A stretch of DNA of 35,271 bases from the NCBI GenBank assembly GCA_003141895.1, contig PLNT01000038.1, positions 1 to 35,271 of the forward strand. Reading direction: 5' to 3'. Shown in pieces: positions 600 through 27,544 of this stretch. This DNA is from Bacteroidales bacterium. GTDB lineage: Bacteria; Bacteroidota; Bacteroidia; Bacteroidales; VadinHA17. The notes under the pieces were generated by a model. That model was not told the origin of the DNA. It worked only from the letters and a program-made list of their open reading frames with translations, and made no database searches. The translations under genes were made by a program, and so were the position numbers. Within the stretch, counting starts at the first letter, position 1. Each line of letters begins with the position of its first letter.

Positions 600-612
600 T
601 GTCTTTGGTTCT

Positions 613-1404: not shown

Positions 1405-1407
1405 TGG

Positions 1408-2484
1408 TCAACCTCCTATGAGTTTTGATTTCAAACTTTCAACCACCTCTTCAGGTGTGGTAACAATTCCTCCCATTCTGCCAAAATGATAAACAGGAAC
1501 TTTTCCGTTAACAGAGAGAAGTACGTCTTCTACCATCTGTCCGGCACTCATTTCAACTGACAGCATACCCTTTACTTTGGCAGCAAGATTACTAATTCTT
1601 TTTGTCGGGAAGGGGAATAATGTAATTGGCCTCAACAAACCAACTTTTATTCCCTGTTCTCTTGCAATCTGCACTGATTTTTGACAAACTCTTGCACTGG
1701 TACCATAAGCAACCAGGAGATATTCAGCATCTTCGCACTGAAATTCTTCGAAACGCACTTCCTTTTCCCTTATTTCATTATATTTTGCAACAAGTTTCCT
1801 GTTAAACATTTCCTGCCTGTCAGGATCCAGATCAAGTGAAGTTATAATATTTCTTTCCCTCGTCGCAGGTTTACCCGTTGTAGCCCAGTCGGGAACAATC
1901 TTCGACCTTTCTTTCTGAGGACTCAGATAAACTTTCTCCATCATCTGTCCGATGGCGCCATCGGAAAGCATCATTACGGGATTCCTGTATTTAAAAGCCA
2001 GCTCGAAACTGAGATCCACAAAATCAGCCATCTCCTGGACTGATGCAGGAGCAAGTACAATAAGGTGATAATCACCATGTCCTCCTCCTTTTGTAGCCTG
2101 AAAATAGTCTGATTGAGCAGGCTGGATAGTACCAAGACCCGGACCACCCCTGACTACATTCACTATAAGACAAGGAAGTTCAGCTCCGGCAATATACGTA
2201 ATACCTTCCTGTTTCAGACTTATGCCTGGTGATGAAGATGATGTCATAACTTTTTTACCACATGCCGCACCCCCATAAACCATATTAATAGCTGCGATTT
2301 CACTCTCAGCCTGGAGAACTACCATTCCGGTAGTTTTGGAAGGATTAGCTTCCATCAGGTACTCAATTATTTCAGTCTGCGGTGTAATGGGATATCCAAA
2401 GTAGCCATCTACCCCGGCACGGATAGCAGCTTCAGCAACTGCTTCATTTCCTTTCATTAACCTTAATTCCTTTTCCATTACCAT
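1408..2484 (-). CDS. 2-oxoacid:ferredoxin oxidoreductase, alpha subunit
   Basis: Alpha (pyrimidine-binding, domain I/II) subunit. GNEAVAEAAIRAG (12-24) followed by YPITPQTEI (31-39) is the hallmark of the POR/VOR/KOR alpha family, and the C-terminal part carries the transketolase-like domain II (AYGTSARV, GLLRPITLFPFP). Its 358 residues match VorB/KorA proteins, which lack the long N-terminal gamma fusion of some KorA enzymes. It lies 2 bp after the delta gene and 3 bp before the beta gene. Proteins of this type are often called 3-methyl-2-oxobutanoate dehydrogenase subunit, but branched-chain, aromatic or 2-oxoglutarate substrates cannot be separated from sequence alone. Confidence 0.94.
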   Translation of the reverse strand: MVMEKELRLMKGNEAVAEAAIRAGVDGYFGYPITPQTEIIEYLMEANPSKTTGMVVLQAESEIAAINMVYGGAACGKKVMTSSSSPGISLKQEGITYIAGAELPCLIVNVVRGGPGLGTIQPAQSDYFQATKGGGHGDYHLIVLAPASVQEMADFVDLSFELAFKYRNPVMMLSDGAIGQMMEKVYLSPQKERSKIVPDWATTGKPATRERNIITSLDLDPDRQEMFNRKLVAKYNEIREKEVRFEEFQCEDAEYLLVAYGTSARVCQKSVQIAREQGIKVGLLRPITLFPFPTKRISNLAAKVKGMLSVEMSAGQMVEDVLLSVNGKVPVYHFGRMGGIVTTPEEVVESLKSKLIGG

Positions 2485-2486
2485 GC

Positions 2487-2711
2487 TTAAATTTTTGTTT
2501 TATAAACTGTTATAACTCCATCAGGGCAAACCATAGCACAATTGGCACACCCGATGCAAAGATCAGGATTTGCAGGAAATGCATAATTGTAACCCTTCCC
2601 ATTCACCTCTTTTGCCATTGCGATGGTACCAGTCGGACATGTGACCATGCATACTTCGCAGCCCTTACATTTCTCAATATTTACTACAATACTTCCTCTG
2701 ATTTTTGCCAT
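2487..2711 (-). CDS. 2-oxoacid:ferredoxin oxidoreductase, delta subunit (2[4Fe-4S] ferredoxin)
   Basis: A 74-residue bacterial-type dicluster ferredoxin subunit with two CxxCxxCxxxCP motifs (C15/18/21/25 and C52/55/58/62). It would carry electrons from the TPP core to soluble ferredoxin. I chose the ATG at 2709-2711 (MAKIRG). A longer reading from a GTG at 2750 would overlap the end of the aminotransferase gene by 20 bp and add 13 residues unlike the family. With the ATG, a 19-bp gap remains. The gene is 2 bp from the alpha gene, so the four subunits form a compact block. Confidence 0.92.
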   Translation of the reverse strand: MAKIRGSIVVNIEKCKGCEVCMVTCPTGTIAMAKEVNGKGYNYAFPANPDLCIGCANCAMVCPDGVITVYKTKI

Positions 2712-2730
2712 ATTCAATATATTTATTCCG

Positions 2731-4047
2731 TTATAGCGGATGGTCCTCACTAAATTTTTTTAAACGTATACTAAGGTCTGGGAATTGCGTACGAGGAACA
2801 AGAGAAACGCACGCTCTCAATCCATAAGGTCTGCTGCTGCCCGTTGTAACAAGAGAAATGGCGCTTATTCCATATCTTAGAAGCTGCAGGATCAATTCGT
2901 CTCCCTTCATTCCAGGATAAGAGACAGTAAAATAAAAACCGTCAGCCAATGGCTCATCAAGGTCTCTGTCGTAAACTATCTGGAAATTATTCGAAATAAA
3001 CATTTTTTTCATTTCCCTCGCCTTCTCACCATAATCCATCACATCGTCCCTATACTTGTACTCCCCGTTGTTAACTGCTTTTAATAGAGCAGCCAAACCA
3101 AACTGCACGGAATGAGAAACACCGGCAGATAATCCATATAAAGCTCCAAAGATAGCGGAATGTCCGAACTTATCGGTTGAATAATATCTTAAAAGATCAG
3201 GATAGGATCTTTCAAAGAGATGATCGGATATAGCCATCATACCTATTCTTTGCCCGGCATAACTGAATATCTTTGAACTGGAGATCAGCATAACATACTC
3301 ATCGGTATAGTGAGCAATTGTTGGCTGGAATGGAGGTTTCCCTGGATTTGAATAATCTTTCCGGAAGTCCATTCCGAAGTATGCAAGGTCTTCAATTACG
3401 ATAACATCATACTTTTTACATAATTCTCCAATAGTGGAAAGTTCTTCTTCTGTCAGGCAAATCCACGATGGATTATTTGGATTTGAAAAAAGTAATGATG
3501 AGATTTTCCGGGGTTTCAGATATGATTCGAGCTTGTCTTTAAGTTTCTTCCCCCTGTAATTAATGATATCGAATGAAGAGTAATCATGTCCAAGCATCTT
3601 TACCTGCTGCTTTTGAATGGGAAATCCCGGGTCGATAAAAAGCGTTCCCTCTTTCGTTTTGTCATTTCTGTTTGCCACAAGAAAACTTACCATTGCTCCC
3701 ATCATCGAACCAACTGTAGGAATACAGCCTTTAGGATCAATATCAACATTCAGAAATAACTTAATAAATCGAGCTGTTTCCTTTTTGAGTGATTCAATTC
3801 CTGTGATATCGGGATAGATCGATGCGACATTATTCCTTAACGCAGTTATTTCAGCTTCAATGGCTATTGACGGAGTTGAGAGACCCGGAACTCCCATTTC
3901 CATCCTGACGAATTTGACTCCTGTCTCCGCCTCAATCAGATTAACCAGGTAAACAATTTCGCGAATTGAAGCTTTGTTAAGAGAATGTATATCAGCCTTC
4001 TCACTCAGCTTCATTATCAGATCAGAAGATATCGGAATGTTAGTCAT
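2731..4047 (-). CDS. Class I/II PLP-dependent aminotransferase
   Basis: Fold-type I aminotransferase of 438 residues. Visible motifs are SNPNNPSW (188-195), the cofactor Asp and Tyr in EDLAYFG (D220, Y223), the Schiff-base lysine in SSSKIFSYAGQR (K259), and a C-terminal Arg in YGLRACVSL that would bind the substrate carboxylate. It should convert an amino acid to the 2-oxoacid used by the oxidoreductase encoded directly downstream. It lies 14 bp after the PaaK-type ligase gene. Specificity is not readable from sequence; context suggests aromatic or branched-chain amino acids. Confidence 0.88.
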   Translation of the reverse strand: MTNIPISSDLIMKLSEKADIHSLNKASIREIVYLVNLIEAETGVKFVRMEMGVPGLSTPSIAIEAEITALRNNVASIYPDITGIESLKKETARFIKLFLNVDIDPKGCIPTVGSMMGAMVSFLVANRNDKTKEGTLFIDPGFPIQKQQVKMLGHDYSSFDIINYRGKKLKDKLESYLKPRKISSLLFSNPNNPSWICLTEEELSTIGELCKKYDVIVIEDLAYFGMDFRKDYSNPGKPPFQPTIAHYTDEYVMLISSSKIFSYAGQRIGMMAISDHLFERSYPDLLRYYSTDKFGHSAIFGALYGLSAGVSHSVQFGLAALLKAVNNGEYKYRDDVMDYGEKAREMKKMFISNNFQIVYDRDLDEPLADGFYFTVSYPGMKGDELILQLLRYGISAISLVTTGSSRPYGLRACVSLVPRTQFPDLSIRLKKFSEDHPL

Positions 4048-4061
4048 TTCTGTAATAAAAG

Positions 4062-5363
4062 TTAATATTTCCGCTTATCAATTACGTGTTTAGCCTTTCC
4101 TTCACTGCGTTCAAGAACTTTGGGTTCGACGAGAGTCACTTTTATTCCCAGTCCTATTGAGTTCTCGAGATTTGTCTGCAGTTTATGCCTCAATGATTCC
4201 AGCTGACTTATTTTGTCCTGAAAGAAAGCTTCATCAACCTCTACTTTTAATTCAAGCGTATCGAGATTATTTATCCTGTCAACTATTAAGAGATAATGTG
4301 GTTTTATTTCGCTCATTTCGAGAAGAACACTTTCAACCTGTGACGGGAAAAGATTTACCCCGCGGATAATAAGCATATCATCACTCCGTCCGAGACATTT
4401 TTCCATTCTAACCATTGTTCTGCCACATTTGCACGTTTCATGCGTTAACCTTGTGAGGTCGCGGGTGCGGTAACGTATGAGAGGCAATCCTTCTTTTGTA
4501 ATAGTTGTAAATACCAGCTCCCCCGCACTCCCGGATGGTAAAACCTGAAGGGTCTCCGGATCGATAATTTCAGGATAGAAATGATCTTCCGCAATATGCA
4601 AACCCTCCTGGACAAGACATTCACTTGCTACTCCAGGACCTATTACTTCACTTAATCCGTAAATATCTATTGCTTTTATTCTCAGCTTATCCTCAATCTC
4701 CCGCCTCATATTCTCAGTCCAGGGCTCAGCACCGAACACTCCCACTCTTAACTTTAAGTCTTCACGTTTTATTCCACTCTCCTGAATTGCTTCAGCAAGA
4801 AAAAGAGCATATGATGGTGTGCAGGCCAGAACAGTGCTTCCGAAATCGTGCATTAGCTGAATTTGCCGCATTGTATTTCCCCCTGATATTGGAATTACAG
4901 ATGCACCAATTTTTTCGCCACCATAATGCAAACCAAGACCACCGGTAAAAAGACCATAACCGTATGCGACCTGGATAAAATCATTCCTGTTCGCCCCGGC
5001 ACTTGTAAGAGTGCGGGCCATTACCTCTGACCATGTGGAGATATCATTACGAGTATACCCCACTACTGTAGGTTTACCGGTAGTTCCCGAGGAGGCGTGA
5101 ACCCGAACAATTTCGCTCATGGGAACGGCAAACAGTCCAAAAGGGTAATTGTCTCTCAGATCCTGTTTTGTGGTAAAGGGCAGTTTTGCGATGTCATCAA
5201 TTGATTTGATGTTTTCAGGGCCTAATCCTGCCTTCTGCATTTTGTCCCTGTAATAAGGCACATTGAAATACACTCTTTCAACTGTCTCTCTAAGCCTTTC
5301 ACTTTGAATATGTCTGATCCCATTACGATCCATACACTCGAAAGGACGGTTCCAAATTTCCAT
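4062..5363 (-). CDS. paaK: Phenylacetate-CoA ligase family protein (AMP-forming)
   Basis: Adenylate-forming acyl-CoA ligase of the PaaK family at the usual length (433 residues). The phosphate-binding loop is [10 protein letters not shown] (89-98), the adenine-binding loop [10 protein letters not shown] lies mid-protein, RYRTRDLT marks the hinge region, and a late lysine sits in the C-terminal [12 protein letters not shown]. It would activate phenylacetate or a related aryl or indolyl acid with ATP and CoA to an aryl-CoA, AMP and PPi. It is encoded 8 bp after the ACT-domain gene. The pairing of a PaaK-type ligase with an ACT protein and 2-oxoacid:ferredoxin oxidoreductase genes is common in anaerobes that degrade aromatic amino acids (family knowledge). 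The exact acid is inferred. Confidence 0.88.
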
Positions 5364-5371
5364 TTTGTTGA

Positions 5372-5797
5372 TTATATCTTATACAAATCACTCGCTTTCA
5401 GCAATTCCATCTCATGTCTTTTAAGAGCTTCTATTGCTTTCTCAGTATCGCTACACCGAAGAATAATTATTGATTTAGCCCCGACAGAAAATGCATATGT
5501 ATATTCCACACTAATGTCCAAATCTGATAATATTCTAAGGATCTTTGCATAGTATCTGGCTTCATTGGGAGCCATAACTGAAATAACATCAGTCAGATTG
5601 ACTGTGAAATTCTTCTTTTTCAATGATACTCTCGCCTTATCAGGGTCTGATACAATAAGCCTTAAAATCCCGAATTCAGAAGTATCAGCAACGCTTAATG
5701 CAGTTATCCTGATATTCTCCTCTCCAAGAACTTCAAGCACTTCTGTAAGTCGTCCCGATTTATTTTCAAGAAAAACTGATAACTGATGGGTAATCAT
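5372..5797 (-). CDS. Tandem ACT-domain protein (amino-acid binding)
   Basis: A 141-residue protein made of two ACT domains (about 4-70 and 72-140). The first has the typical [18 protein letters not shown] pattern and the second the YTYAFS...IILR pattern. Such stand-alone double-ACT proteins occur next to PaaK-type ligases in many anaerobes and are thought to sense an amino acid or effector and modulate the ligase or its pathway. There is no DNA-binding or catalytic domain. It is encoded between the ADP-forming synthetase and the ligase, 8 bp before the latter. The ligand and target are unknown. Confidence 0.85.
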
Positions 5798-5868
5798 ATT
5801 TTTAACTATTTATTAAATAATTGAATTTCCGAATATAAATATAAATTTTCACTAGTCATAACTGATAT

Positions 5869-7926
5869 TTATCTCTCAATCCTTATCCTGGCATCAACTA
5901 CTGTAATCCCGTCCTGACTTCCTATCAAGGGGTTCAGATCCATTTCTTTTATTTCAGTAGCATATCGCAACAGACTAGAGAGTCTCACAATTATCTCAGC
6001 AAATTTTGGTTCATTAATTCCGGGTTTTCCCCTCGTCCCTCTTATAATACTGTAACTTTTCAGAGATCTTATCATTGATTCTGCTTCGCTGAATGTCAGC
6101 GGAGCAAGTCCCGAAGATACATCTCCCAGGGCTTCAACAAAAATTCCTCCCAGACCACAGAGAATGATATGTCCAAAACGAGGTTCATATTTTGCACCGA
6201 TAAAAAGTTCAGTCCCTGAAAGCATCTGTTGCATAAGCACTGCATTCACATCTTTGATCTGCATCATTCTCGTAAATTCAGCTTCGAGATGTTTTGCCGA
6301 TTTGATATTGAGGGTTACTCCCCCCACATCAGATTTATGTACGGGTCCAACGACTTTTAATGCAATGGGATAGCCTGTTCTACCGGCTTCTGCTAAAAGT
6401 TCTTCTTTTGAAGTAACTACCTTTTCTTTCACCACAGGTATATTCGCCGCTTTAAGAAGCTGTTGGATTATTACGGGTTCCTGATAACCGTCAGATGATT
6501 GATCTATTATCTGTCTGACCAGGTTAACATCAATATTTTCAAGGAATATTTTCTCATCCGCCGGCAAAGGAGTATTGAATATCTTTGTCAGGGCTCGACC
6601 CAGCACAACTTCATCGGGGAAATTAATGTGACCCTTATTAAGAAAATATTCCAGTTCTTTGGATGAACTTGTGATGGATGGCAATATCGGATAAAGAGGT
6701 TTATTGCATTCCTTAATTTTCTTATGAAGAAGGTCGTAAATATCTGTCATGTTATTCAAACCATTACTTCCGAAGATAACACTCATACCATCTATCAGGG
6801 GAAGTTCCTTATCGACATATTCAATTACCCTGTCGAGCTGTTCGTATGTGGCAGTTGCTATCATATCAATTGGATTGATAGCAGATGCGCCCGGATTCAT
6901 CATTGCAAGTAAATCATCATAAGGTTCTCCGGTTATTTTTGGAATATTCATTCCACCGGCTGACAGTGCATCAGTAAGCATTACGGCAGGCCCACCTGCA
7001 TGTGTAATTATTGCTATGTTTTTGCCTTTGAGTGGTTTGTGAAAGAATACCGATGCTACAGTTGTAAGTTCTTCGCGTCCTGAACATCTGACTATCCCGG
7101 CTTTACGAAATAATGCTTCCACCGCTGAATCAGATGAAGCCATTGCTCCTGTGTGAGAGGAAGCAGCCCTGCTGCCGGCTTCAGTTGTCCCAGCTTTAAT
7201 TGCTGCAATTCTGCACCCTTTTCTTATCAGCGATGAAGCATGATGAAGCAATTTATCAGGATTTCTTATGCTTTCTACATATATAAGTTTTATGGGTGAA
7301 CTTTCCCCTGGTTCGTAAGTATTATCCCAGTATTCAAGTACCTCCTCCACTCCAGTCTGTGCACTGTTGCCCACAGAATAAACACTCGAAAAGTTCAAAC
7401 CTTTAGGCATTGCTGATTCGAAAATAAATACAGCGGTTGCTCCTGAACCAGAGACAAAATCACATCCTCTTGCATTAAGCTTGGGCACGGGAGAAGTAAA
7501 GACTCCCTGATACGACTGGGTAATAACACCAATGCAATTTGGCCCGATAAGACAACCTCCTGATTTATCAATGATTTCAGAAACTTCATGCTCAAGTTTC
7601 TGTCCCTCGCTTCCAGCTTCACTGAAGCCTGCAGAAATAATAATAAATGCTTTTGTTTTTTTGTCGCTGACCAGGGTCTTTACAGCTGATAAACAGAGTG
7701 GTGCAGATATTGCAAGAATTGCCAGATCTGTATCAGGAATTTCATTTAGATCCCTGTAGGATTTTATCCCCTGTATCTTGTCCTGCTTAGGATTTACTAC
7801 ATAAAGGTTACCTGAGTATCTACCATCAATTATGTTTTTGAGAACCTTCCCTCCCGGTTTGAAAAGATCGTCTGATCCTCCTACAACAACAATGCTGGCA
7901 GGATTTATAAGTTTTTCGTTTATCAT
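5869..7926 (-). CDS. ADP-forming acetyl/acyl-CoA synthetase (fused alpha-beta)
   Basis: A 685-residue NDP-forming acyl-CoA synthetase that turns acyl-CoA, ADP and Pi into acid, CoA and ATP, so it conserves energy. The N-terminal CoA-binding Rossmann domain starts with SIVVVGGSDD (11-20). The succinyl-CoA-ligase-like domains follow, with the phosphohistidine expected at H258 in SSHTGAMASSD. An ATP-grasp domain fills about residues 460-685 (ALKVVGPVHKSDVGG, EMDLNPL). It is the first gene of the amino-acid oxidation operon, with 71 bp to the ACT gene. It would hydrolyse the acyl-CoA made by the 2-oxoacid oxidoreductase. Preference for acetyl, branched or aryl substrates cannot be read. Confidence 0.92.
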   Translation of the reverse strand: MINEKLINPASIVVVGGSDDLFKPGGKVLKNIIDGRYSGNLYVVNPKQDKIQGIKSYRDLNEIPDTDLAILAISAPLCLSAVKTLVSDKKTKAFIIISAGFSEAGSEGQKLEHEVSEIIDKSGGCLIGPNCIGVITQSYQGVFTSPVPKLNARGCDFVSGSGATAVFIFESAMPKGLNFSSVYSVGNSAQTGVEEVLEYWDNTYEPGESSPIKLIYVESIRNPDKLLHHASSLIRKGCRIAAIKAGTTEAGSRAASSHTGAMASSDSAVEALFRKAGIVRCSGREELTTVASVFFHKPLKGKNIAIITHAGGPAVMLTDALSAGGMNIPKITGEPYDDLLAMMNPGASAINPIDMIATATYEQLDRVIEYVDKELPLIDGMSVIFGSNGLNNMTDIYDLLHKKIKECNKPLYPILPSITSSSKELEYFLNKGHINFPDEVVLGRALTKIFNTPLPADEKIFLENIDVNLVRQIIDQSSDGYQEPVIIQQLLKAANIPVVKEKVVTSKEELLAEAGRTGYPIALKVVGPVHKSDVGGVTLNIKSAKHLEAEFTRMMQIKDVNAVLMQQMLSGTELFIGAKYEPRFGHIILCGLGGIFVEALGDVSSGLAPLTFSEAESMIRSLKSYSIIRGTRGKPGINEPKFAEIIVRLSSLLRYATEIKEMDLNPLIGSQDGITVVDARIRIER

Positions 7927-7948
7927 AGTCAGTTAAAATGGGAAAAAT

Positions 7949-7966
7949 TTGAATTCTGGAATTCAA
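7949..7966. promoter_or_regulatory. Operator-like perfect palindrome upstream of the amino-acid oxidation operon
   Basis: TTGAATTCTGGAATTCAA has perfect 8-bp arms around a 2-bp centre and lies 23 bp from the start codon of the ADP-forming synthetase gene, where a repressor or activator would act. It does not match the Rex box closely. The regulator is unknown. Confidence 0.4.
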
Positions 7967-8307
7967 TAATTCGTACAGACTGAAAACTACAATCCGGAAA
8001 ACAGCTTGAGATAGCCGACGTTAAGAGCAACTACAAATAAATAATTCTCTGATATATAATAACTTACAGCCAATTATCGATCTTTAATTTTTAAGGCAAG
8101 TTAATAAAAATAAATAGTTTAAAAACAAGATAATTATCATAGTAAAAAGTCAAGTACTTTATGAATTCAGGATAGGATTTTAAGATTGCTTCGTCCTCCT
8201 TCGTCGGACTCGCAATTGTAAATGTCAGATAATTTGGAGACAATTTTAGTTCTCAAATTCCGAAATAAAGGATAAGTGTTACTTATGTGTGCTCTGTGTT
8301 AACCCTT

Positions 8308-8467
8308 GGAGATCCCTCACTCCGTTCGGGATGACCGGTTATTTTTTTTGGAGGGGGGAGGCAGGGCGGAGAAGGCGATTTGCTGAGCAAATCGCCTTCT
8401 CCGCCCTGCCTATGTCTTATAGATAAAATGTCATTCCGAATGAAGCGTAGCGAAATGAGGAATCTCC
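8308..8467. repeat. Composite palindromic intergenic element with a 51-bp near-perfect hairpin core
   Basis: The outer arms 8308-8336 (starts GGAGATCCCTCACTCCG) and 8429-8467 (ends GAGGAATCTCC) are imperfect inverted copies. The core, 8360-8410, consists of two perfectly complementary 25-nt arms around one base at 8385. A second copy of the outer arms lies at 33649-33742, and the 39-nt right arm is identical in both. The element is non-coding and may be a REP/MITE-type repeat family or a very strong hairpin. Confidence 0.8.
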
Positions 8468-8571
8468 TTTGGTTGTCATAAATTCTTGTGCGCAAAATTG
8501 TATGATTCGGGAATATCCATATCATTATTAAATTGAACTTTATATATAACTATATTTATTTAAAGAATAAT

Positions 8572-8601
8572 CTTGTCAGATGTCTTAAAAAATTACTTTT
8601 G
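8572..8601 (+). promoter_or_regulatory. Candidate Bacteroidetes-type promoter for the C69 peptidase gene
   Basis: A -33-like CTTG (8572-8575), 18 bp, then TACTTTTG (8594-8601), matching the TAnnTTTG -7 consensus. The start codon is 40 bp downstream. The spacer is one base shorter than the usual 19-21 bp. Confidence 0.5.
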
Positions 8602-8641
8602 CAATTAGTCTGATTCAAGTAATGATGGTAATCTCTATAAA

Positions 8642-10258
8642 ATGAAAAACATAAATACCAGGTACGTTTTGACAATAGTTATATTAGTGTGCTTCTCTCT
8701 TTTCGCCCAGGCACAATACTCTGACATAGATACAGATGGGCCAGTATATGGTGAGAATTGTACAACAATAATGGTAGGAAAACTGGCATCTACTGACGGC
8801 TCAGTAATGACATCACACAGCTGTGATGGCAACTACCGGACATGGATTGAAATCTATCCGCATCAAAAATATGAGCCTGGAACATTGCATCCTGTTTACA
8901 CCGGAATGCTTCATACTGAAGAAGCATGGGATATGACCAAAGTTATTTTAAAGGGAAATATCTCAGAGGTTCCTGAGACTTACGCTTTTCTTAATACAGC
9001 TTACCCTTGTCTTAATGAGAAGCAGCTTGCTATTGGAGAAACTACTATTTACGGGAGAGAGGAACTTATGAATCCCGATGGTATGTTTATGATTGAAGAA
9101 CTTGAAAAGATAGCCCTTCAGAGATGTAAAACTGCAAGAGAAGCAATAACATTGATTGGAAGCCTTGCTGAGGAATATGGATATGCTGATCTGGCAGAAT
9201 GTATAACCCTGGCTGATCCAAAAGAGGTATGGCAACTGGAAATCGCTGGTTCAGGTAAAGGGAAACCTTCATCTATCTGGTGTGCAGAAAGAATCCCCGA
9301 TGAAAATGTTGGGATTTGCGCTAATATTCCCCGAATATCGGTTGTTGATTTTAAGAATCATGATTTTTTTATGTATAGTACCAATTTGCAAAATGTGGCA
9401 AAAAAATCAGGATACTGGGATGGAAAAGAGCCTCTGAAATTCTGGAAAATTATTAATGGGAAAAAACCATTCTCAATAAGGGAATTTTATATTTTAAGTT
9501 CGTTGGCTCCATCATTGAACCTTTCTTTTGATGCAGAAGAACTTCCTTTTTCTGTAAAACCAGAGAAAAAACAATCACCAAGAGACATTATGAAATTATT
9601 CAGGGAAACCTATGAAGGCACGCAATGGGACATGACAAAGAACCTGCTTGTGACGGTTAAAGAAAAGGATAAAGATGGAAACGAAATTGAAAGGCAGATC
9701 AAATCTCCCGTAATGAGCAACTGGATGAATAATGATCTCAGAACTTTGATCAATGAAATAAAACCCGGAACAATTGAGCGTCAAAGGACTATTGCAATTG
9801 CCGGATGCTCATATTCCCATGTAATTCAATGCCGTGACTGGTTACCAGACGAAGTCGGAGCTGTAGCATGGTTTTCATTCGATAACCCGGGAGAGAGCCC
9901 GCGAATTCCGATATTTTCAGGAGTTCTTAATCTTCCCGCTTCATTTAATATATGTGGTCAGCAACGCTACAGAACTGATGCAGCTATCTGGTCATTCCGT
10001 GAAACAAACAGGCTTGCTACAGTGAACTGGTCAAGAGGAAGAGCGCTTATTGAACCTGCGGTTCAGGAATTCGAAGACAAAGCATTTTCAGAATTGCCGG
10101 CTGTAGAAAAAAAAGTTATTGAGCTTGTTAAAGACGGAAAGAATGATGAAGCAAAGAAATTCGTTACTTCCTATACCAACAGTTTTGCGGATGCTGCCAT
10201 GAGAAGATGGGAAGACCTTAAGATAACTTTGTGGGGTATGTTTGGAAGAGGGTTTTAA
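8642..10258 (+). CDS. C69 family dipeptidase (secreted or periplasmic)
   Basis: An Ntn-type cysteine dipeptidase of the C69 (dipeptidase A) family, 538 residues. A signal peptide is seen (MKNINTRYVLTIVILV..., with AQAQ at residues 22-25 as the likely cleavage site). The catalytic cysteine is expected at C40 in ENCTTIMVGKLASTDGS, the typical N-terminal nucleophile region. It would release amino acids from dipeptides in the periplasm, fitting the amino-acid oxidation operon next door. The start is the first ATG ahead of the signal peptide. It is divergent from that operon and 38 bp ahead of hydE. Confidence 0.88.
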   Translation: MKNINTRYVLTIVILVCFSLFAQAQYSDIDTDGPVYGENCTTIMVGKLASTDGSVMTSHSCDGNYRTWIEIYPHQKYEPGTLHPVYTGMLHTEEAWDMTKVILKGNISEVPETYAFLNTAYPCLNEKQLAIGETTIYGREELMNPDGMFMIEELEKIALQRCKTAREAITLIGSLAEEYGYADLAECITLADPKEVWQLEIAGSGKGKPSSIWCAERIPDENVGICANIPRISVVDFKNHDFFMYSTNLQNVAKKSGYWDGKEPLKFWKIINGKKPFSIREFYILSSLAPSLNLSFDAEELPFSVKPEKKQSPRDIMKLFRETYEGTQWDMTKNLLVTVKEKDKDGNEIERQIKSPVMSNWMNNDLRTLINEIKPGTIERQRTIAIAGCSYSHVIQCRDWLPDEVGAVAWFSFDNPGESPRIPIFSGVLNLPASFNICGQQRYRTDAAIWSFRETNRLATVNWSRGRALIEPAVQEFEDKAFSELPAVEKKVIELVKDGKNDEAKKFVTSYTNSFADAAMRRWEDLKITLWGMFGRGF

Positions 10259-10284
10259 CCCCCGCCGCTAGCAGGTTATTTTTG

Positions 10285-10292
10285 TATCTTTG
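10285..10292 (+). promoter_or_regulatory. Candidate -7 promoter element for hydE
   Basis: TATCTTTG fits TAnnTTTG and ends 4 bp before the chosen hydE ATG at 10297. A transcript would start at or near the ATG, so the mRNA could be leaderless. No convincing -33 TTTG is seen at the right distance. Confidence 0.4.
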
Positions 10293-10296
10293 TATC

Positions 10297-11415
10297 ATGA
10301 TTATCAAAGAAGAAAAATTGACAATAAAAGAGATACTTGACCGGGAGGATTTCACCAGGGAAAACATCATTTCACTCTTGAATTCTGAAGGAGCTGATAG
10401 AACACTTCTGTTAAAAAAGTCAGCGGATATAAAAGAAAAATTCATTGGCAATAAGGTATGGTTCAGGGGATTAATAGAATTTTCAAATATCTGCAGCAAA
10501 GACTGCCTCTATTGCGGGATCAGAAAAGGAAATAAGAATTTAGTCCGGTATAATCTTTCAGATGATGAGATTATTGCTGCCGCCAGGTTCGCTTATGTCA
10601 ATAATTACGGATCATTAGCCCTCCAATCAGGCGAACTGGAAAGCCCGAATGTGACCAGCAGAATTGAAAACCTGCTTTACAAAATAAAAGATCTTTCTAA
10701 AGGAACACTCGGAGTAACCTTGTCTGTTGGTGAACAGGAACATAAGGTATACAAGAAATGGTACGAAGCCGGTGCCCACCGGTATCTTCTACGTATTGAG
10801 GCAACTAACCAGGCTCTGTATAATAAGATCCATCCCAATGATTCAAAGCATGATTTTAATCGTCGTCTCGGTTGTTTAAAAAGCCTCCAGGATATTGGCT
10901 ATCAGACCGGGACAGGCGTTATGATAGGGTTGCCGTTCCAGTCACTTGATGACCTTGCCGGGGACCTTCTTTTTATGAAAAATTTCAATATCGATATGTG
11001 TGGTATGGGTCCGTATATTGAACATGTTGATACACCGCTCTCTGCATATTCTGATGAACTTCTGCCTTTAAAAGACAGATTTGATCTTACTCTTAAGATG
11101 ATTGCGGTTATCAGGATAATGATGAAAGATATTAATATTGTTGCCGCAACTGCAATGCAGGCAATAGATCCTATGGGAAGAGAAAAGGCAGTTAAGATCG
11201 GTGCAAATATATTGATGCCAAATATCACACCCGGCAAGTACCGCGACAGTTATAAATTATATGATAATAAACCATGCACAGAAGATTCTGCAGAAGATTG
11301 TCAGAGTTGTCTGGAGGCACGGGTGAGTCTTGCCGATGCAGAAGTTGTTTATGGGGAATGGGGGGATTCAAAACATTATGAGCTAAGGAGAAGTAAAGAA
11401 GTTAGTAGTAAGTAG
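10297..11415 (+). CDS. hydE: [FeFe]-hydrogenase H-cluster radical SAM maturase HydE
   Basis: Radical SAM enzyme of H-cluster assembly, 372 residues from the chosen start. The cluster motif is CSKDCLYCG (C66, C70, C73). A second set of cysteines near the C-terminus (C327, C335, C338; spacing CX7CX2C) matches the accessory [4Fe-4S] site known from Thermotoga HydE. HydE acts on the iron-cysteine intermediate made by HydG during synthesis of the diiron subcluster. An upstream ATG at 10231 would overlap the peptidase gene, so the ATG at 10297 (MIIKEEK) is preferred. It lies away from hydG, on the opposite strand, with the PLP lyase gene following. Confidence 0.95.
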   Translation: MIIKEEKLTIKEILDREDFTRENIISLLNSEGADRTLLLKKSADIKEKFIGNKVWFRGLIEFSNICSKDCLYCGIRKGNKNLVRYNLSDDEIIAAARFAYVNNYGSLALQSGELESPNVTSRIENLLYKIKDLSKGTLGVTLSVGEQEHKVYKKWYEAGAHRYLLRIEATNQALYNKIHPNDSKHDFNRRLGCLKSLQDIGYQTGTGVMIGLPFQSLDDLAGDLLFMKNFNIDMCGMGPYIEHVDTPLSAYSDELLPLKDRFDLTLKMIAVIRIMMKDINIVAATAMQAIDPMGREKAVKIGANILMPNITPGKYRDSYKLYDNKPCTEDSAEDCQSCLEARVSLADAEVVYGEWGDSKHYELRRSKEVSSK

Positions 11416-11427
11416 TAGTAATAATTA

Positions 11428-11460
11428 ACCAGCACCCAGCACCCAGCACCTAACACCCAG
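11428..11460. repeat. CAGCACC-type low-complexity repeat (left copy)
   Basis: Runs of CAGCACC units follow hydE. They are complementary to the GGGTGCT runs at 13188-13220, so the PLP lyase gene and its leader lie between inverted low-complexity repeats. Such repeats are frequent between genes in related genomes. No terminator is evident here. Confidence 0.6.
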
Positions 11461-11505
11461 AATCAATGGCTCACATAACAATTTACATATTTTAACTAAT
11501 TATTC

Positions 11506-11536
11506 TTTGTATTTTTAAAAAATAAGACTAGGTTTG
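11506..11536 (+). promoter_or_regulatory. Candidate Bacteroidetes-type promoter for the Tyr leader and PLP lyase
   Basis: TTTG (11506-11509), exactly 19 bp, then TAGGTTTG (11529-11536), a full match to the TTTG-N19-21-TAnnTTTG consensus. A start site near 11543 would place the leader-peptide ATG about 10 nt into the transcript and give a leader of about 175 nt before the lyase gene. Confidence 0.6.
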
Positions 11537-11552
11537 AATCAGATATTAAGCG

Positions 11553-11618
11553 ATGGGTATATTTAAATTGAATATTGGTATTTATTATTATTATTATTAT
11601 AGACTGATATATAAGTAA
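11553..11618 (+). CDS. Leader peptide with six consecutive Tyr codons
   Basis: A 21-codon reading frame: MGIFKLNIGI, six TAT (Tyr) codons at 11583-11600, then RLIYK and TAA (11616-11618). It is the only ATG-initiated frame between the promoter and the terminator, and the ATT/TAT repeat is read as Tyr only in this frame. A seventh Tyr codon is at 11610-11612. It precedes a terminator hairpin and a tyrosine phenol-lyase-like gene, the layout of a translation-controlled attenuator. The chance that it is a simple AT-rich microsatellite cannot be excluded. Confidence 0.7.
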   Translation: MGIFKLNIGIYYYYYYRLIYK

Positions 11619-11664
11619 GTCCGATAAATAATAAGTGAAATCACTTTCAAAATATAAGGCTTAC
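11615..11664 (+). promoter_or_regulatory. Candidate antiterminator pairing
   Basis: GTAAGTC (11615-11621), which overlaps the leader stop codon, can pair with GGCTTAC (11658-11664), the 5' arm of the terminator, over seven base pairs including one U-G pair. A ribosome stalled on the Tyr codons would leave 11615-11621 free to form this pairing. A ribosome that reaches the stop codon would cover it and let the terminator form. Confidence 0.5.
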
Positions 11665-11687
11665 CAGGGAAATGGTAAGCCTTTTTT
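11656..11687 (+). terminator. Intrinsic terminator in the leader (attenuator)
   Basis: A perfect 10-bp stem, AAGGCTTACC (11656-11665) with GGTAAGCCTT (11674-11683), an 8-nt loop and six Ts (11682-11687). It lies 240 bp after hydE and 32 bp before the lyase ATG, too close to the gene to leave room for a second promoter. This suggests conditional termination rather than a plain end of the hydE transcript. Confidence 0.8.
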
Positions 11688-11719
11688 ATTTAAACCATTT
11701 AATCAACATAAAAATAACC

Positions 11720-13186
11720 ATGGAAAAAACTCAGAAAAAAGGTACTGTAAAATTCTTCAATGGAAAACAGATCCCCCTGGAAATGCATAAAGTGCGCATT
11801 GTTCAAAGTTTAAAGCTTGTTCCGGTTGAGCGAAGGCTCGAAGCAATCGGTGAGGCAGGATATAACTCGTTTCTGCTGGGCACGAAGGATATTTTTCTTG
11901 ATATGCTTACTGATAGCGGAACAAATGCAATGAGTGATGAACAGTTGTCAAAAATGTTTGTTGCTGATGATGCTTATGCAGGTTCTCAGAGCTTTGTTAA
12001 ATTTCAAAAGAGCGTTGAGACTGTTTTCGGAAAAAAACTGATACTGCCTGTTCATCAGGGTCGTGCTGCGGAAAATATTATTTCACAGACTTTTATCAAA
12101 CAGGGTTCAGTAATCCCAATGAACTATCATTTTACCACCACTTTGGCCCATATCCAGCTTAACGGTGGAAAAGTTGTTGAACTTTTTACACCTGAAGCGA
12201 TGAAGATCAAAAGCTCTCATCCTTTCAAAGGTAACATTGATATTATTCGTCTCGAAGAACTCATTATTAAAACCGGTCCGGCAAACGTTCCTTTTATAAG
12301 GATGGAAGCCTCTACGAACCTTATCGGTGGTCAACCATTTTCGATGGATAATTTCAAGAATGTCAGAAAAATTGCAGATAAATATAAATTAATTATAGTA
12401 CTGGACGCCAGTCTTATTGGTGAGAATGCATTTTTCATTCAGAAACGTGAGGAAGGATTTAAAGATAAGTCTATCGGGCTCATTTTGACTCAGATGTGCG
12501 ATTTGGCTGATATAGTATATTTTTCAGGTCGTAAAGTCAGCTCTTCCCGGGGTGGCGCAATCTGTACGAACAGTAAGGAATTGTTCAATAAAATGAAAGA
12601 TCTTGTTCCTCTTTATGAAGGGTTTCTTACCTACGGTGGAATTTCAATACGCGAGATTGAAGCAATGACTGTTGGTTTGTACGAGACACTCGAAGAAGAT
12701 GTTGTCGGACAATCTCCTTCTTTTATAAGCTATGCAGTTCAGGAACTCGACAAGCTGGGGATACCTGTAATAATGCCTGGAGGTGCACTTGGTTGTCATG
12801 TTGATGCCAAACAATTTCTTTCGCATATACCTCAGACTGACTATCCGGCTGGAGCTCTTGTCGCCGCATTCTATATTATCTCCGGCGTGAGAGGAATGGA
12901 ACGTGGTACAATGAGCAGTATCCGTGATGAACAGGGAAATGATATACTTGCTGATCTTGAGCTTATGAGGCTTGCGTTCCCCCGTCGTGTATTTACCTTA
13001 TCTCAAACTGAATATCTGATGGACAGACTGAACTGGCTATATCACAATAGAGAACTCGTCGGAGGGATCAGGTTTGTTGAAGAACCACCGGTACTGAGAT
13101 TTTTTACTGGACGTCTGGCTCCAATCGGGAACTGGCCTGAAAAACTGGTTGCGAAATTCAGAGCAGATTTTGGGGATAGCCTTTAA
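11720..13186 (+). CDS. Tyrosine phenol-lyase/tryptophanase-family PLP enzyme
   Basis: Beta-eliminating lyase of 488 residues. From remembered Citrobacter TPL it keeps most active-site positions: T64 (TPL T49), Y86 (Y71), R115 (R100), F138-T139 (F123-T124), N200 (N185), D229 (D214), the Schiff-base lysine K272 (K257), M393 and R395 (M379 and R381, the latter typical of TPL rather than tryptophanase), R417 (R404) and F461 (F448). Differences are L232 for R217, which touches the PLP hydroxyl, F302 for M288 and R271 for K256. TPL cleaves Tyr reversibly to phenol, pyruvate and ammonia. An upstream ATG at 11672 lies inside the terminator arm, so I chose 11720. It sits beside hydE and near hydG, where other genomes can have another ammonia lyase. 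Its actual substrate is uncertain. Confidence 0.8.
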   Translation: MEKTQKKGTVKFFNGKQIPLEMHKVRIVQSLKLVPVERRLEAIGEAGYNSFLLGTKDIFLDMLTDSGTNAMSDEQLSKMFVADDAYAGSQSFVKFQKSVETVFGKKLILPVHQGRAAENIISQTFIKQGSVIPMNYHFTTTLAHIQLNGGKVVELFTPEAMKIKSSHPFKGNIDIIRLEELIIKTGPANVPFIRMEASTNLIGGQPFSMDNFKNVRKIADKYKLIIVLDASLIGENAFFIQKREEGFKDKSIGLILTQMCDLADIVYFSGRKVSSSRGGAICTNSKELFNKMKDLVPLYEGFLTYGGISIREIEAMTVGLYETLEEDVVGQSPSFISYAVQELDKLGIPVIMPGGALGCHVDAKQFLSHIPQTDYPAGALVAAFYIISGVRGMERGTMSSIRDEQGNDILADLELMRLAFPRRVFTLSQTEYLMDRLNWLYHNRELVGGIRFVEEPPVLRFFTGRLAPIGNWPEKLVAKFRADFGDSL

Positions 13187-13187
13187 A

Positions 13188-13282
13188 CTGGGTGCTGGGT
13201 GCTGGGTGCTGCTGGGTGCTCTCTGGTGTTTGGAAAGTACCAAGTACCAAGCACCTGGTACCCAGAACCCAGAACCCAGAAC
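13188..13282. repeat. GGGTGCT and CCCAGAA low-complexity repeats between convergent genes
   Basis: Several GGGTGCT units (13188-13220) are followed by AAGTACC-like and CCCAGAA units, partly complementary to one another. The block fills the gap between the convergent PLP lyase and TM1266-type genes. The GGGTGCT part is the inverse of the CAGCACC run at 11428-11460. It may act as a weak bidirectional hairpin, but no T-run terminator is seen. Confidence 0.55.
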
Positions 13283-13807
13283 CTAGAATACCATGGTTCT
13301 GACATGAACTTTTGTTAATGATTTAAGGTCTTTTTCAAGCAGGATACGTTGTTTTTCATCGCCTCTCAGCTCCAGAATGATAAGTCCTGCAGGTTCACCG
13401 AAGAAGACCTCATTCACTCCCAATCTGGTTCTTATATTGCAGCCATAAGAGGTAAGAATTTTCTGAACAGCTGAAATCACAGATGGGTTTCGTTCAACAA
13501 GCATACCAAGTATTTCAACACTGTTTTTAACTGATTCTTTATTCAAATTTTCATTTTCAACCGTAAAAATCATTTCACGGATTTCAATTCCCTCAAGGGT
13601 TTTTAAATCAAATGCCAATTTCTCAGTATCAGCAGGATCTCCATTAAGATGGAGTATTATATAAGCTTCACGGCTGCAGATTTCATCTGTCACTTCATGA
13701 AATCCCATACGGGTTGTTATCACAGAAGCATGTTTGGAAAGTATACCCTGGGTAAGACCGGCTTCTTTTATCCTGTCTATTATTTTAATTCCGAGAACTT
13801 TTATCAT
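13283..13807 (-). CDS. Duplicated TM1266-type iron-only hydrogenase system regulator
   Basis: A 174-residue protein made of two ACT/NikR-like units (about 1-82 and 95-174). The units align with each other: ILSKHASVITTRMG with ILTSYGCNIRTRLG, and LKTLEGIEIREMIF with LKSLTKVHVRTMVF. The single-domain form, about 80 residues, is found with [FeFe]-hydrogenase maturation genes and is called a putative regulator; here it is fused in tandem. It is the last gene of the minus-strand hydrogenase cluster, 220 bp after hydG. There is no DNA-binding domain, and ligand and partner are unknown. Confidence 0.82.
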   Translation of the reverse strand: MIKVLGIKIIDRIKEAGLTQGILSKHASVITTRMGFHEVTDEICSREAYIILHLNGDPADTEKLAFDLKTLEGIEIREMIFTVENENLNKESVKNSVEILGMLVERNPSVISAVQKILTSYGCNIRTRLGVNEVFFGEPAGLIILELRGDEKQRILLEKDLKSLTKVHVRTMVF

Positions 13808-14027: not shown

Positions 14028-15452
14028 TTAAAAGTAGAGATCCCTCTCTCCTGATTTAATCCTCTCAATCTTTTCCCTGGTACTTACCGCGATCTGAGGT
14101 TCAAGTTTTTCAAGGTTTTTTTCAATAGCCTTCCAACCTTTGTTAACTGTTTCACCAACAGCATAATCACAGATATATTCTGAAAGGGTTAGGATTGCAT
14201 TCGGTGAGCAGAATCTTTTTATGAATCCAGGAACTGAAAATTCCATAAAATGTTCTCCCGTACGTCCCATTCTGTAACATGATGTGCAGAATGAAGGCAA
14301 ATAATCATTATCCAGTAGTTCATCAACTACTTCCGCAAGTGATCTTGCATCATTAATTTTAAACTGTTCCCTGTTCAGATTCTGTTTTTCATTTTTAGTA
14401 TCAGCATAGGACCCAATTTCAAGTTTGGTCCCGCCATCTATCTGTGATACACCAAATTGCATCGCCTCTTTTCTTACTCCGGGAGATTCCCTTGCAGTCA
14501 ATATCAATCCTGTATATGGAACAGCTAATCTTAATATTGCAATAAGCTTTTTGAAGTCTTCGTCATTTGTTTCATATTTACCATCAATGTTCAGACTGAG
14601 GGCATCCTTGATACGCGGGAAAGAAATAGTATGAGGTCCGACATTATAACATGCTTCAAGATGATTAGTGTGACGGATGAGTCCCATCACTTCAAATCTC
14701 CAGTCGTAGAGACCGAAAAGTGCACCTATCCCAACATCATCAATACCGGCTTCCTGTGCCCTGTCGAGGGCCGTCAGCCGATATTCATAATCTCTTTTTT
14801 TCCCTCCCAGATGGTACCATTTATAAGCTTCAGGATCATATGTTTCCTGGAATACCTGGTAGGTACCGATGCCAGATTCTCCTACTATTCTGAATCCCTC
14901 TACATCAAGGGGAGCTGCATTAATATTTACCCTTCTTATTTCGCCATGACCTTTTTTGACTCCATATACAATTTTCACAGTATGAGCAATGTACTCAGGT
15001 GAATAGTCGGGATGTTCGCCATATACAAGGATCAGCCTTTTCTGTCCGTTATCTTCAAGAGCCTCAACTTCCTTAATAATATCATCGTCGCTCAGGGTTT
15101 TCCTTATTGCATCTGCATTCGTAACTCTGAAGCCACAGTACTGACAATTATTGACACATCGGTTCCCAACATATAGGGGGGCAAAAAGTACAATTCTGTT
15201 TCCGTATACTTTCTCCTTTAGTTCCCGAGCACCCTGCTTGATTTCATCAGCCAGACCGGTACCTATAGAATTTATCAGAACTGCAGTTTCTTCCATTGTC
15301 AGTCTCTGCTTATCAAGTGATTTAGCAATAACTTCCCTTACTCTCAGTTTATCGGGTTTAGTATTGTTTAACAGCTTCCATATTTCTTCAGGATCAATGA
15401 ATGGCTTCATTCTTTGATCGGGTATGCTTAATCTTTCAGGTGAAAACTTCAT
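14028..15452 (-). CDS. hydG: [FeFe]-hydrogenase H-cluster radical SAM maturase HydG
   Basis: Tyrosine lyase that splits tyrosine into p-cresol plus the CO and cyanide ligands of the H-cluster iron. The radical SAM motif is CVNNCQYCG (C99, C103, C106). The C-terminal auxiliary cluster motif is CTSCYRMGRTGEHFME (C389, C392), with a third cysteine C415 in RFCSPNA. The length of 474 residues is typical. It follows the ribF-like gene after a 188-bp gap holding an inverted repeat and a possible promoter, so it may be transcribed both from the hydC promoter and on its own. Its use of tyrosine is notable beside the Tyr-attenuated lyase gene. Confidence 0.96.
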   Translation of the reverse strand: MKFSPERLSIPDQRMKPFIDPEEIWKLLNNTKPDKLRVREVIAKSLDKQRLTMEETAVLINSIGTGLADEIKQGARELKEKVYGNRIVLFAPLYVGNRCVNNCQYCGFRVTNADAIRKTLSDDDIIKEVEALEDNGQKRLILVYGEHPDYSPEYIAHTVKIVYGVKKGHGEIRRVNINAAPLDVEGFRIVGESGIGTYQVFQETYDPEAYKWYHLGGKKRDYEYRLTALDRAQEAGIDDVGIGALFGLYDWRFEVMGLIRHTNHLEACYNVGPHTISFPRIKDALSLNIDGKYETNDEDFKKLIAILRLAVPYTGLILTARESPGVRKEAMQFGVSQIDGGTKLEIGSYADTKNEKQNLNREQFKINDARSLAEVVDELLDNDYLPSFCTSCYRMGRTGEHFMEFSVPGFIKRFCSPNAILTLSEYICDYAVGETVNKGWKAIEKNLEKLEPQIAVSTREKIERIKSGERDLYF

Positions 15453-18865: not shown

Positions 18866-20827
18866 TCATTCTTTTCTCCTTGGCAACACAATCTTAAAAC
18901 TCGTTCCGGTCGGGCCTTTAGCCGGATTATTATTTGAATCCGCTGTAATCTGACCTTTATGCATTTTAACAACTCCATAAGCTGTCGCTAAACCGAGACC
19001 TGTTCCATGACCAATACTTTTTGTGGTAAAGAATGGCTCGAATATCTTTGCCCTGTCTTCTTCCTTTATGCCAGTACCTGTGTCACTAATAACTATTATC
19101 ATGTCACTTAGGGTATCTTCCATTTTTATATTTATTGTACCCCCTCCCGGCATAGCATCAATGGCATTCTTTATCAGATTTGTCAGTACCTGCATCATCT
19201 GTTCCTGGTCGAGCATTGCTGATGGATTTGTGGTATGGTCATCAATATTGATTTTAACTTTTGGCGGAATAATAAGGCTTTCCAGGCTATGGTTTACCAG
19301 GTCTTTAATGCTAACCATCTGATGGTTCACCTGGTTCTTCCGTGCAAAATTCAATAATCCGGCGACAATTTTCTTACACCGTCCGGCCTGATCGACAATG
19401 AGCTGAAGATCTTCTCTCACCGGATCTTCCATCTTCGCTTCTTCCAGCAGGATGTTGCTATACATAATTACTACCCCGAGAGGATTATTTAATTCATGCG
19501 CAATACCTGCTGAAAGCTGACCCATGTGAGCAAGCTTCTCAGATTGTTTAAGAGCCTGTTTCATCGATGAGAGCTTCTCATTTGATAATGCCAGATCTTT
19601 TACCGATTTATGGAGCTTCTCAATTGTATAAGGGAGACACATTTCAACTTCTGCAAGGCCCTTCTTTATAGCAATCGCATGTTCAACACAACTTTCATAC
19701 CCACAGGCACCACAATCGAGCTGATCCTTTTTGGTCTTTTTCCCCATCTTAATCAAAATGTCATTTACATCATTCTCATTAAGAGTCTCAATACGACGAT
19801 CTTCAGCTTTATGTCTTACCGAAAGATCAAGTTCTGCAAATTCTTCAAATGACTTTTGCCAGTTTTCAGAATCAATATTCTGCATTTTACTGTTGGCATA
19901 AGAACTAACCAATGCACGACGATTATATTGTTTTCCGTTTTTTGATAATCCGGGTCCCATTATGCAACCTTCACAACAAAGCAACTCCATATGCTGTTTG
20001 CTTATCAAGCCTGCTTCAAATTCTTTCAGGGCTCCCTGGAAATCAATTCTTCCTTCAGCTGCTATTATATTTCCGGTTATGGCGTTATCACTTATTTTTG
20101 CAGTCTGAAGGAGACCACGGGCAACCGGGAATATCGCACCTCGTCCGCCGACAGGCTGATCAAAATCCACGGGAATGGCAGTTTGAGCAGTAATTCCACG
20201 GTCCGCGAACATATCTCTCAATTCCGTAAAAGTAATAGCTTCATCAATCTCAGTACTCTCAGCTTTTTTTGCTATGCATGGACCTATGAAGACAATTTTT
20301 ATGTCCTTTCCGTATTTTTCACGAACAACCCTGCTCATAGCTACCATTGGTGAGACTATTGGAGCAAGGTTATCTGCAAGTGCAGGATGATAGAATTTTA
20401 CGTAGTTTACGATAGAGGGACAATCAGAAGAAATATAAAAATTCTTGCTTTCAGAAACTAATTTTTTATACCTGTCAGCAACCAGGTCAGCACCAAAGGA
20501 AACCTCAGCAACATACATAAAACCAAGTGCTTTGATCATTCCTGTAAGTATCATGTGATCAGGAATATCACCGAACTCAGCCGGAAAGCTTGGAGCAATG
20601 ATTGCGGCTACTCTCGATTCAGTCTCCAGGAGCTTTATAACCCGATCGGTTGTATTGAGAAATACTTTTGCCCCCTGGCTACATACTTTAGTACAATTAC
20701 CGCATGCGATACATCTTTCATCTATTACTTCTGCCTGTCCGCCGACAATCCGGATAGCTTTTGCAGGACATTCCCTAACGCAAGTATAGCATGTACGGCA
20801 AAGTTCTTTTATAGTGTATACCAGCAT
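18866..20827 (-). CDS. Sensory [FeFe]-hydrogenase-domain histidine kinase
   Basis: A 653-residue cytoplasmic fusion. In order: a dicluster ferredoxin domain (C10/13/16/20 and C39/42/45/49), an H-cluster domain (about 75-315) with motifs SSDCPSIV (C136), GPCIAKK (C184) and LCCEGCIMGPG (C284 or C285, and C288), a [4Fe-4S] motif (CGACGYESC plus C397; about 372-397), a coiled coil, HisKA with H444 in GIAHELNNPL, and HATPase (SDTGTGI 581-587, GTGLGLA 608-614). Such group C-like proteins are thought to sense H2 or redox state through the H-cluster and signal by the kinase. It follows hydA by 18 bp and precedes the lone receiver gene, its likely partner. Confidence 0.9.
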   Translation of the reverse strand: MLVYTIKELCRTCYTCVRECPAKAIRIVGGQAEVIDERCIACGNCTKVCSQGAKVFLNTTDRVIKLLETESRVAAIIAPSFPAEFGDIPDHMILTGMIKALGFMYVAEVSFGADLVADRYKKLVSESKNFYISSDCPSIVNYVKFYHPALADNLAPIVSPMVAMSRVVREKYGKDIKIVFIGPCIAKKAESTEIDEAITFTELRDMFADRGITAQTAIPVDFDQPVGGRGAIFPVARGLLQTAKISDNAITGNIIAAEGRIDFQGALKEFEAGLISKQHMELLCCEGCIMGPGLSKNGKQYNRRALVSSYANSKMQNIDSENWQKSFEEFAELDLSVRHKAEDRRIETLNENDVNDILIKMGKKTKKDQLDCGACGYESCVEHAIAIKKGLAEVEMCLPYTIEKLHKSVKDLALSNEKLSSMKQALKQSEKLAHMGQLSAGIAHELNNPLGVVIMYSNILLEEAKMEDPVREDLQLIVDQAGRCKKIVAGLLNFARKNQVNHQMVSIKDLVNHSLESLIIPPKVKINIDDHTTNPSAMLDQEQMMQVLTNLIKNAIDAMPGGGTINIKMEDTLSDMIIVISDTGTGIKEEDRAKIFEPFFTTKSIGHGTGLGLATAYGVVKMHKGQITADSNNNPAKGPTGTSFKIVLPRRKE

Positions 20828-27538: not shown

Positions 27539-27544
27539 TTTTAA

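Follow-up and report, generated by a model that had tools for sequence, protein, structure and literature searches.

A lyase gene of the tyrosine phenol-lyase (TPL)-like kind, in an uncultured Bacteroidales genome, is proposed to be controlled by a ribosome-mediated transcription attenuator of the his/ilv/trp type, which measures charged tRNA-Tyr and acts on this one gene; we put the probability of this reading at about 0.86. The window analysed is contig PLNT01000038.1, positions 1–35,271 (Bacteroidales bacterium, VadinHA17; GCA_003141895.1). The original prediction, an attenuation that depends on translation and senses Tyr, is supported by a layout conserved in 18 loci. The features of the window are as follows:

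11506–11536, plus strand: Bacteroidota-type promoter, TTTG-N19-TAGGTTTG, seen in the sequence (TTTG 11506–11509, TAGGTTTG 11529–11536) and presumed to be a promoter from the Bacteroidota consensus
11553–11618, plus strand: leader ORF of 21 codons, MGIFKLNIGIYYYYYYRLIYK and stop, seen in the sequence; a Tyr-rich leader is likewise placed in 18 loci including the window
11583–11600, plus strand: six consecutive Tyr (TAT) control codons, seen in the sequence
11602–11621, plus strand: possible protector hairpin 1:2, GACT (11602–11605) with AGTC (11618–11621), weak in the window and clearer in several relatives
11615–11621, plus strand: segment 2, the 5' arm of the antiterminator, GTAAGTC, overlapping the leader stop codon
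11658–11664, plus strand: segment 3, GGCTTAC, common to antiterminator and terminator
11656–11687, plus strand: intrinsic terminator, with an 11-bp stem (11656–11683), a loop of 6 and a T run of six Ts (11682–11687)
11720–13186, plus strand: TPL-like PLP lyase of 488 aa (NCBIfam models, predicted fold), the putative controlled gene
7926 to 45, minus strand: operon with an ADP-forming-type acyl-CoA ligase, an ACT pair, a PaaK-like ligase, an aminotransferase and 2-oxoacid:ferredoxin oxidoreductase subunits

The promoter, the Tyr-codon frame and the antiterminator coordinates of the original prediction were borne out on direct reading of the sequence. Its terminator was rightly positioned, but the stem is 11 bp by hairpin scan and not 10 bp. 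The GTAAGTC/GGCTTAC antiterminator pairing includes one G.U, and a seventh, isolated Tyr codon of the leader lies at 11610–11612. The terminator is separated from the lyase ATG (11720) by 32 nt; an alternative, longer lyase start at 11672 falls within the terminator. The lyase gene is flanked by simple repeats of the CCCAGCA / TGCTGGG type, in opposite orientation, at 11431–11462 and 13186–13290. Elsewhere in the window, a 20-pair inverted repeat (8362–8408) lies between divergent genes.

With ample Tyr, the ribosome would reach the leader stop codon and cover segment 2, so that the terminator (3:4) would form and the gene would be OFF. When charged tRNA-Tyr is low, the ribosome would stall in the Tyr run and leave segment 2 free to pair with segment 3 while segment 4 is still to be transcribed, and the gene would be ON. 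Translation of the leader, the direction of the switch and its kinetics are what we infer here. Folding was calculated assuming that the ribosome covers 14 nt. A ribosome in the Tyr run leaves free the RNA up to 11668, which folds as the antiterminator (−12.6 to −13.2 kcal), while one standing on the stop codon prevents this fold (−3.5 kcal). Once segment 4 is present, the most stable fold contains the terminator in all cases. Since the full RNA at equilibrium always prefers the terminator, the switch must be kinetic, as known attenuators likewise are.

We looked for the lyase in 98 relatives. Within the genus, 22 genomes, our own included, were found to have a full-length lyase gene at at least 63% identity, a count that omits gene fragments (L028, pieces in G044 and G095, and a second piece in G052). 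The Tyr leader and terminator are present in 16 of the 22 (L001, L003–L006, L008–L012, L015, L016, L018, L020, L021 and L023). The leader is lost or degraded in five (L007, L013, L014, L017 and L019), and the remaining gene, L025, belongs to another protein clade and has no leader. Two more leader loci (L037 and L038) came from a scan of named genomes, giving 18 leaders in total. In each of the 18, 11–17 nt separate the end of the Tyr run from segment 2; the spacing refers to the run itself, and L001 and L009 carry one extra isolated Tyr codon closer to segment 2. Relative to the start of segment 2, the end of the leader stop codon ranges from 6 nt upstream to 28 nt downstream; at stops as far as 28 nt past this point, a ribosome halted there would cover segment 2 in part. 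There are 3–9 Tyr codons per leader, and some of the 18 runs are broken by Cys, His or Phe codons. TAT and TAC are mixed in 11 of the 18 leaders, and therefore the amino acid is kept, not a TAT repeat. Outside the Tyr run the leader peptide differs between subclades, the run being preceded by KLNIGI or KLNISI in one part of the genus and elsewhere by MNIDHYRHYYYYC, MILSGCYYYHYYYYH or MKSTNYNINSLYYYY. A TAnnTTTG box was present in all 23 leader regions examined, including those of the leader-deleted L014 and L019.

A protein tree placed 22 rows (17 with a leader, five without) in one clade with support 100/100. Because the five leaderless genes are nested in this leader-bearing clade, they look like secondary losses. 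The lyase of G047 (L023 / L129) falls outside the clade, at a locus without shared neighbours, and has a closely similar leader (MIVKLNIGIYYYFYCSRILW); the leader therefore probably moved between lyase genes or predates the clade. The sister genes L013 and L017 have lost the Tyr leader, keep a terminator-like stem and have a hairpin where the leader ORF was, so that the switch may serve a different purpose there. At L133 (G044, 3137–3268), a lyase remnant of ~44 codons lies between hydE and a TM1266-like gene, the leader being gone too.

For wider relatives, the best 80 of 588 loci were taken; L032–L038 belong to the leader-bearing group, leaving 73 (L039–L111). The original prediction had named homologues without the Tyr codons or the terminator as evidence against it. 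This holds in part: the leader is lost or degraded in five of the 21 group genes, the rest of which keep it, and a leader with terminator was found at none of the 73 outside loci (best 80 of 588; L047 and L101 with shortened upstream DNA), using a filter of 4 Tyr in 7 codons that sparse leaders could escape, as it missed the real leader of L035, which is the same gene as L016.

The pairing was then scored across the 18 leaders. The terminator had 97.8% of cells paired (10 aligned pairs), where slid controls reached no more than 68.8%, and the antiterminator 89.6%, where they reached no more than 55.6%; the terminator share was equalled by 70 of 500 shuffles. Alignment of the leaders had been proposed as a check for conservation of the Tyr run and covariation in the stem. 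The run was conserved in the 18 loci, but only 3 of 10 stem pairs had changed in both partners, a count that 21 of 500 shuffles reach. None of the eight antiterminator pairs showed compensatory change, and all 500 shuffles do as well; change is restricted here because the arms are common to other helices.

The duplex of the segment 2 region with segment 3 reached −8.4 kcal or better in 17 of 18 leaders, and in 12 of the 18 it was matched by at most 5% of dinucleotide shuffles. L008 and L012 pair outside the common register, and in L004 segment 3 is mutated and the duplex is no better than shuffled (117 of 200 equally good). Antiterminator and terminator are thus mutually exclusive via the common segment 3, weakly so in L004 and in altered form in L008 and L012. 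The protector hairpin after the Tyr run had a mean z of −1.7 over the 18, with 13 below −0.5. The window is not among the 13: its protector segment is cut short by the seventh Tyr codon, and a longer fold pairs 7 of 7 positions upstream with the stability of shuffles. An inner hairpin between segments 2 and 3 was significant in none of the 18 leaders.

Taken alone, the Tyr run is at chance level. Our own genome has six matches to TAYx5 (5 separate places) versus 11 for a reversed control pattern, and the 62 genus genomes have 130 matches versus 358. The antiterminator duplex of the window (−8.4 kcal), taken alone, is a modest signal above chance, 3 of 200 shuffles being equally good. The layout is judged to be above chance because the whole arrangement is conserved in relatives. 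It is hardly credible that the Tyr run stands by chance beside an ordinary terminator without any regulation. TAYx5 runs are indeed common (48 of 62 genomes), if rarer than the control pattern, but such an accident is contradicted by 18 loci in which promoter, Tyr leader, segment 2, terminator and spacing are conserved together.

A survey of Tyr runs gave 39 rows at 37 distinct places (L197 = L175, L206 = L196), some pattern matches being without a locus. All three lyase rows had leader and terminator. Among the other 34 places only L185 gave a hairpin match, and by eye L185 has no leader; the four other Tyr-run places of our own genome gave no terminator match. No wider Tyr regulon was found among the 37 distinct places, a survey that leaders with fewer than five consecutive Tyr codons would escape. 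At tyrA of our own genome, which directly follows an aminotransferase-like ORF (L201; ORF named by eye), no attenuator was seen.

A covariance model, R1, was built from the 18 leaders and searched in 146 genomes. Its 16 strong matches (E of 7.6e-8 or lower) are the 16 leader genomes, as expected by construction, and there was no other strong match in the 146 genomes, the next having E 0.003 (stricter filters). Thirteen of the 27 weaker matches were opened, of which 12 were readable. Eight of these 12 lie before ilvD and have Ile/Leu/Val-rich peptides (L223, L224, L226, L228, L229, L231, L233 and L234), one lies before hisG and has four His codons (L225), and three are without such a leader (L227, L232 and L235). 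IlvD at L229 and HisG at L225 were confirmed by model; the other seven ilvD calls are by likeness of the first residues. L013 and L017, with their decayed leaders, account for two further weak matches. In our own genome, the contig that carries the window also has the leader VKISLIHIIILVLILAQRT and stop (G000:C8:223819, L237) before ilvD (start GTG), and the leader MYYKTTSHHHFHFCFQAR and stop (G000:C8:235931, L238) before hisG, of the Ile/Leu/Val and His type, respectively. The terminator-like stems after them reach −17.7 and −18.1 kcal folded alone; the hisG stem pairs otherwise when a longer stretch is folded. The predicted direction of the switch is supported by these leaders because the layout is used on synthesis operons in the same genome.

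The opposite direction would be expected of an inducer-type, tnaC-like leader, in which free Tyr or the poly-Tyr peptide arrests the ribosome and high Tyr turns on a degrading lyase. Such a leader would suit a catabolic lyase, and the tryptophanase/TPL family includes lyases with tnaC-like leaders. We nevertheless consider it improbable: there is no conserved arrest peptide, the peptide outside the Tyr run being unconserved between subclades, a run of control codons is the signature of starvation control, this genome has the same layout in its ilv and his leaders, and the terminator is intrinsic.

The enzyme itself was compared with protein families and structures. It passed the NCBIfam model PRK13238 (tryptophanase/TPL subfamily; 571.7 bits, cut-off 285), but scored 434.3 bits against TIGR02618, the TPL equivalog, below its cut-off of 720.7, and was also below the cut-offs of the tnaA and P. 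gingivalis-type TnaA equivalogs. The earlier description of the gene as tyrosine phenol-lyase-like can thus be kept, but not in the sense of a true TPL; judged by sequence, the lyase is a distinct TPL-like clade. Its nearest solved proteins are TPLs, both by sequence (382.6 bits) and by predicted fold (TM 0.87 by query length; model pLDDT 83.7). In the 18 aligned sequences of the clade, T124, M379, R381 and F448 (TPL numbering), the PLP lysine and Y71 are kept, the first four of which we take to be the phenol-side, or phenol-recognition, residues. In all 18, R217 is replaced by Leu and K256 by Arg (TPL numbering). Among the best 80 of 588 loci, relatives of the lyase come from records whose names include Bacteroidota, Verrucomicrobiota and spirochaetes, among others. 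A second homologue in our own genome (C26) has a tryptophanase-like VEIG in place of MERG and is without a Tyr leader.

If the switch works in the direction proposed, the lyase would be needed during Tyr shortage, and the simplest reason would be that it makes Tyr. In the reverse or replacement direction, TPL chemistry yields Tyr from phenol, pyruvate and ammonia, or from phenol and serine. A tyrosine-forming role is suggested because starvation control is opposite to the need of a Tyr-degrading enzyme, and of the readings considered, synthesis of tyrosine agrees best with this control. We tentatively suggest that the TPL-like clade might be an in vivo tyrosine synthase (phenol + pyruvate + ammonia, or serine), serving anaerobes as an emergency route beside TyrA that would come on when charged tRNA-Tyr falls, though this is more doubtful than the attenuator itself. 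TyrA (PF02153) was found in 59 of the 62 genus genomes, and G043, which bears the leader, is one of the three lacking a match. Of 29 other genomes with the lyase, 26 matched TyrA, 12 of the 26 by weak partial matches only. Because TyrA is usually present, the lyase is not the sole source of Tyr, and these counts rule out replacement of TyrA by the lyase as a general rule.

The attenuator could also be real and the lyase act on another substrate, Tyr shortage being a wider starvation signal that leads, for example, to the release of pyruvate and ammonia. The clade-wide changes at R217 and K256 and the usual presence of TyrA point this way, as does the neighbouring operon at 45–7926, which resembles arylacetate or aromatic 2-oxoacid metabolism; the retained phenol-side residues T124, M379, R381 and F448 and the Tyr specificity of the leader speak against it. 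Such a lyase is possible, but we would not presume it. The operon plausibly serves an exchange of arylacetates and aromatic amino acids. No leader with terminator was recognised by eye in 7927–8641.

The gene lies downstream of HydE (10231–11415) and upstream of a TM1266-like regulator and HydG (14028–15452), and the original prediction had suggested that the lyase might manage Tyr consumed by HydG. The switch would then serve HydG, Tyr spent on the CO and cyanide of the H-cluster making the gene needed. HydE and HydG do flank the lyase, and a hydE/TM1266/hydG neighbourhood is also seen in some other members of the genus. However, a HydG match is absent from four of the 16 intact-leader genus genomes (G012, G038, G043 and G045, which are 95, 94, 83 and 100% complete), HydG is over the cut-off in 28 of the 36 genus genomes without a full-length lyase gene, and HydE/HydG was found at none of the 73 loci L039–L111 (best 80 of 588; at most 8 kb each side). 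The first two counts contradict a role in managing Tyr for HydG, which we consider very unlikely, and leader and gene without HydG in the four genomes rule out the HydG neighbourhood as the reason for the leader. Outside the genus, the lyase gene has no widespread partner (76 of the best 80 of 588 loci, four without a called lyase ORF being dropped); the commonest same-position pair, an acyltransferase-like and a dehydrogenase-like ORF at +1/+2, occurs at four loci (names by eye; best 80 of 588). Two hydrogenase-like proteins encoded in the window are candidate H2 sensors: at 18866–20827 a hydrogenase-like domain is fused to a histidine kinase, and at 25652–28729 another hydrogenase-like protein is followed by a SpoIIE-type phosphatase.

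Attenuators of the his and ilv type are ribosome-mediated. Like known attenuators, the window leader has a short control-codon peptide, exclusive antiterminator and terminator, an intrinsic terminator and a stop codon near segment 2. Unlike them, it senses Tyr alone, and its target is a lyase-family gene and not a synthesis operon or a tRNA synthetase. The E. coli tryptophanase gene, which belongs to the same enzyme family, likewise has a leader peptide before it, tnaC; there, induction by free Trp works through arrest and Rho, whereas the window leader has a codon run and an intrinsic terminator. The Citrobacter and Erwinia TPLs are the best sequence and fold match to the lyase and have the phenol-side residues in common with it, but identity is about 40%, and R217 and K256 are changed in the lyase. 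Classic TPL is induced by Tyr through TyrR. T-box leaders have no leader peptide, and no Rfam family, T-box included, reached the gathering score in the window. The available text of one source names tyrosine T-box leaders (PMC1262725), which respond to the same signal as the window leader, uncharged tRNA-Tyr.

In the accessible part of another source, trp, pheA and pheST are ribosome-mediated attenuators (PMC11802643). The aroR leader before aroF of Corynebacterium glutamicum, as given there, contains Phe-Tyr-Phe and acts under Phe limitation (PMC11802643). In this aromatic attenuator, too, the control codons include one for Tyr, a single one in the text available, versus the Tyr run of the window leader. 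Leader-peptide attenuation of amino acid operons is mentioned for a flavobacterium in the part of PMC9723704 that is available. No Tyr-only codon-run attenuator was recognised in the full-text literature searched, which mostly lies outside subscription papers, and the closest reported leader found, going by the accessible text, is the Phe-Tyr-Phe leader of aroR (PMC11802643).

The mechanism proposed here is classical, its Tyr-only specificity is new, and its target, a TPL-like lyase under starvation control, is unexpected. It would add tyrosine-only specificity to ribosome-mediated attenuation and, with the ilvD and hisG leaders as internal controls, indicates that these uncultured Bacteroidales use attenuation for several amino acids. 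A gene of the tryptophanase/tyrosine phenol-lyase family would here be regulated like a biosynthetic gene, which makes the physiological direction of the enzyme directly testable.
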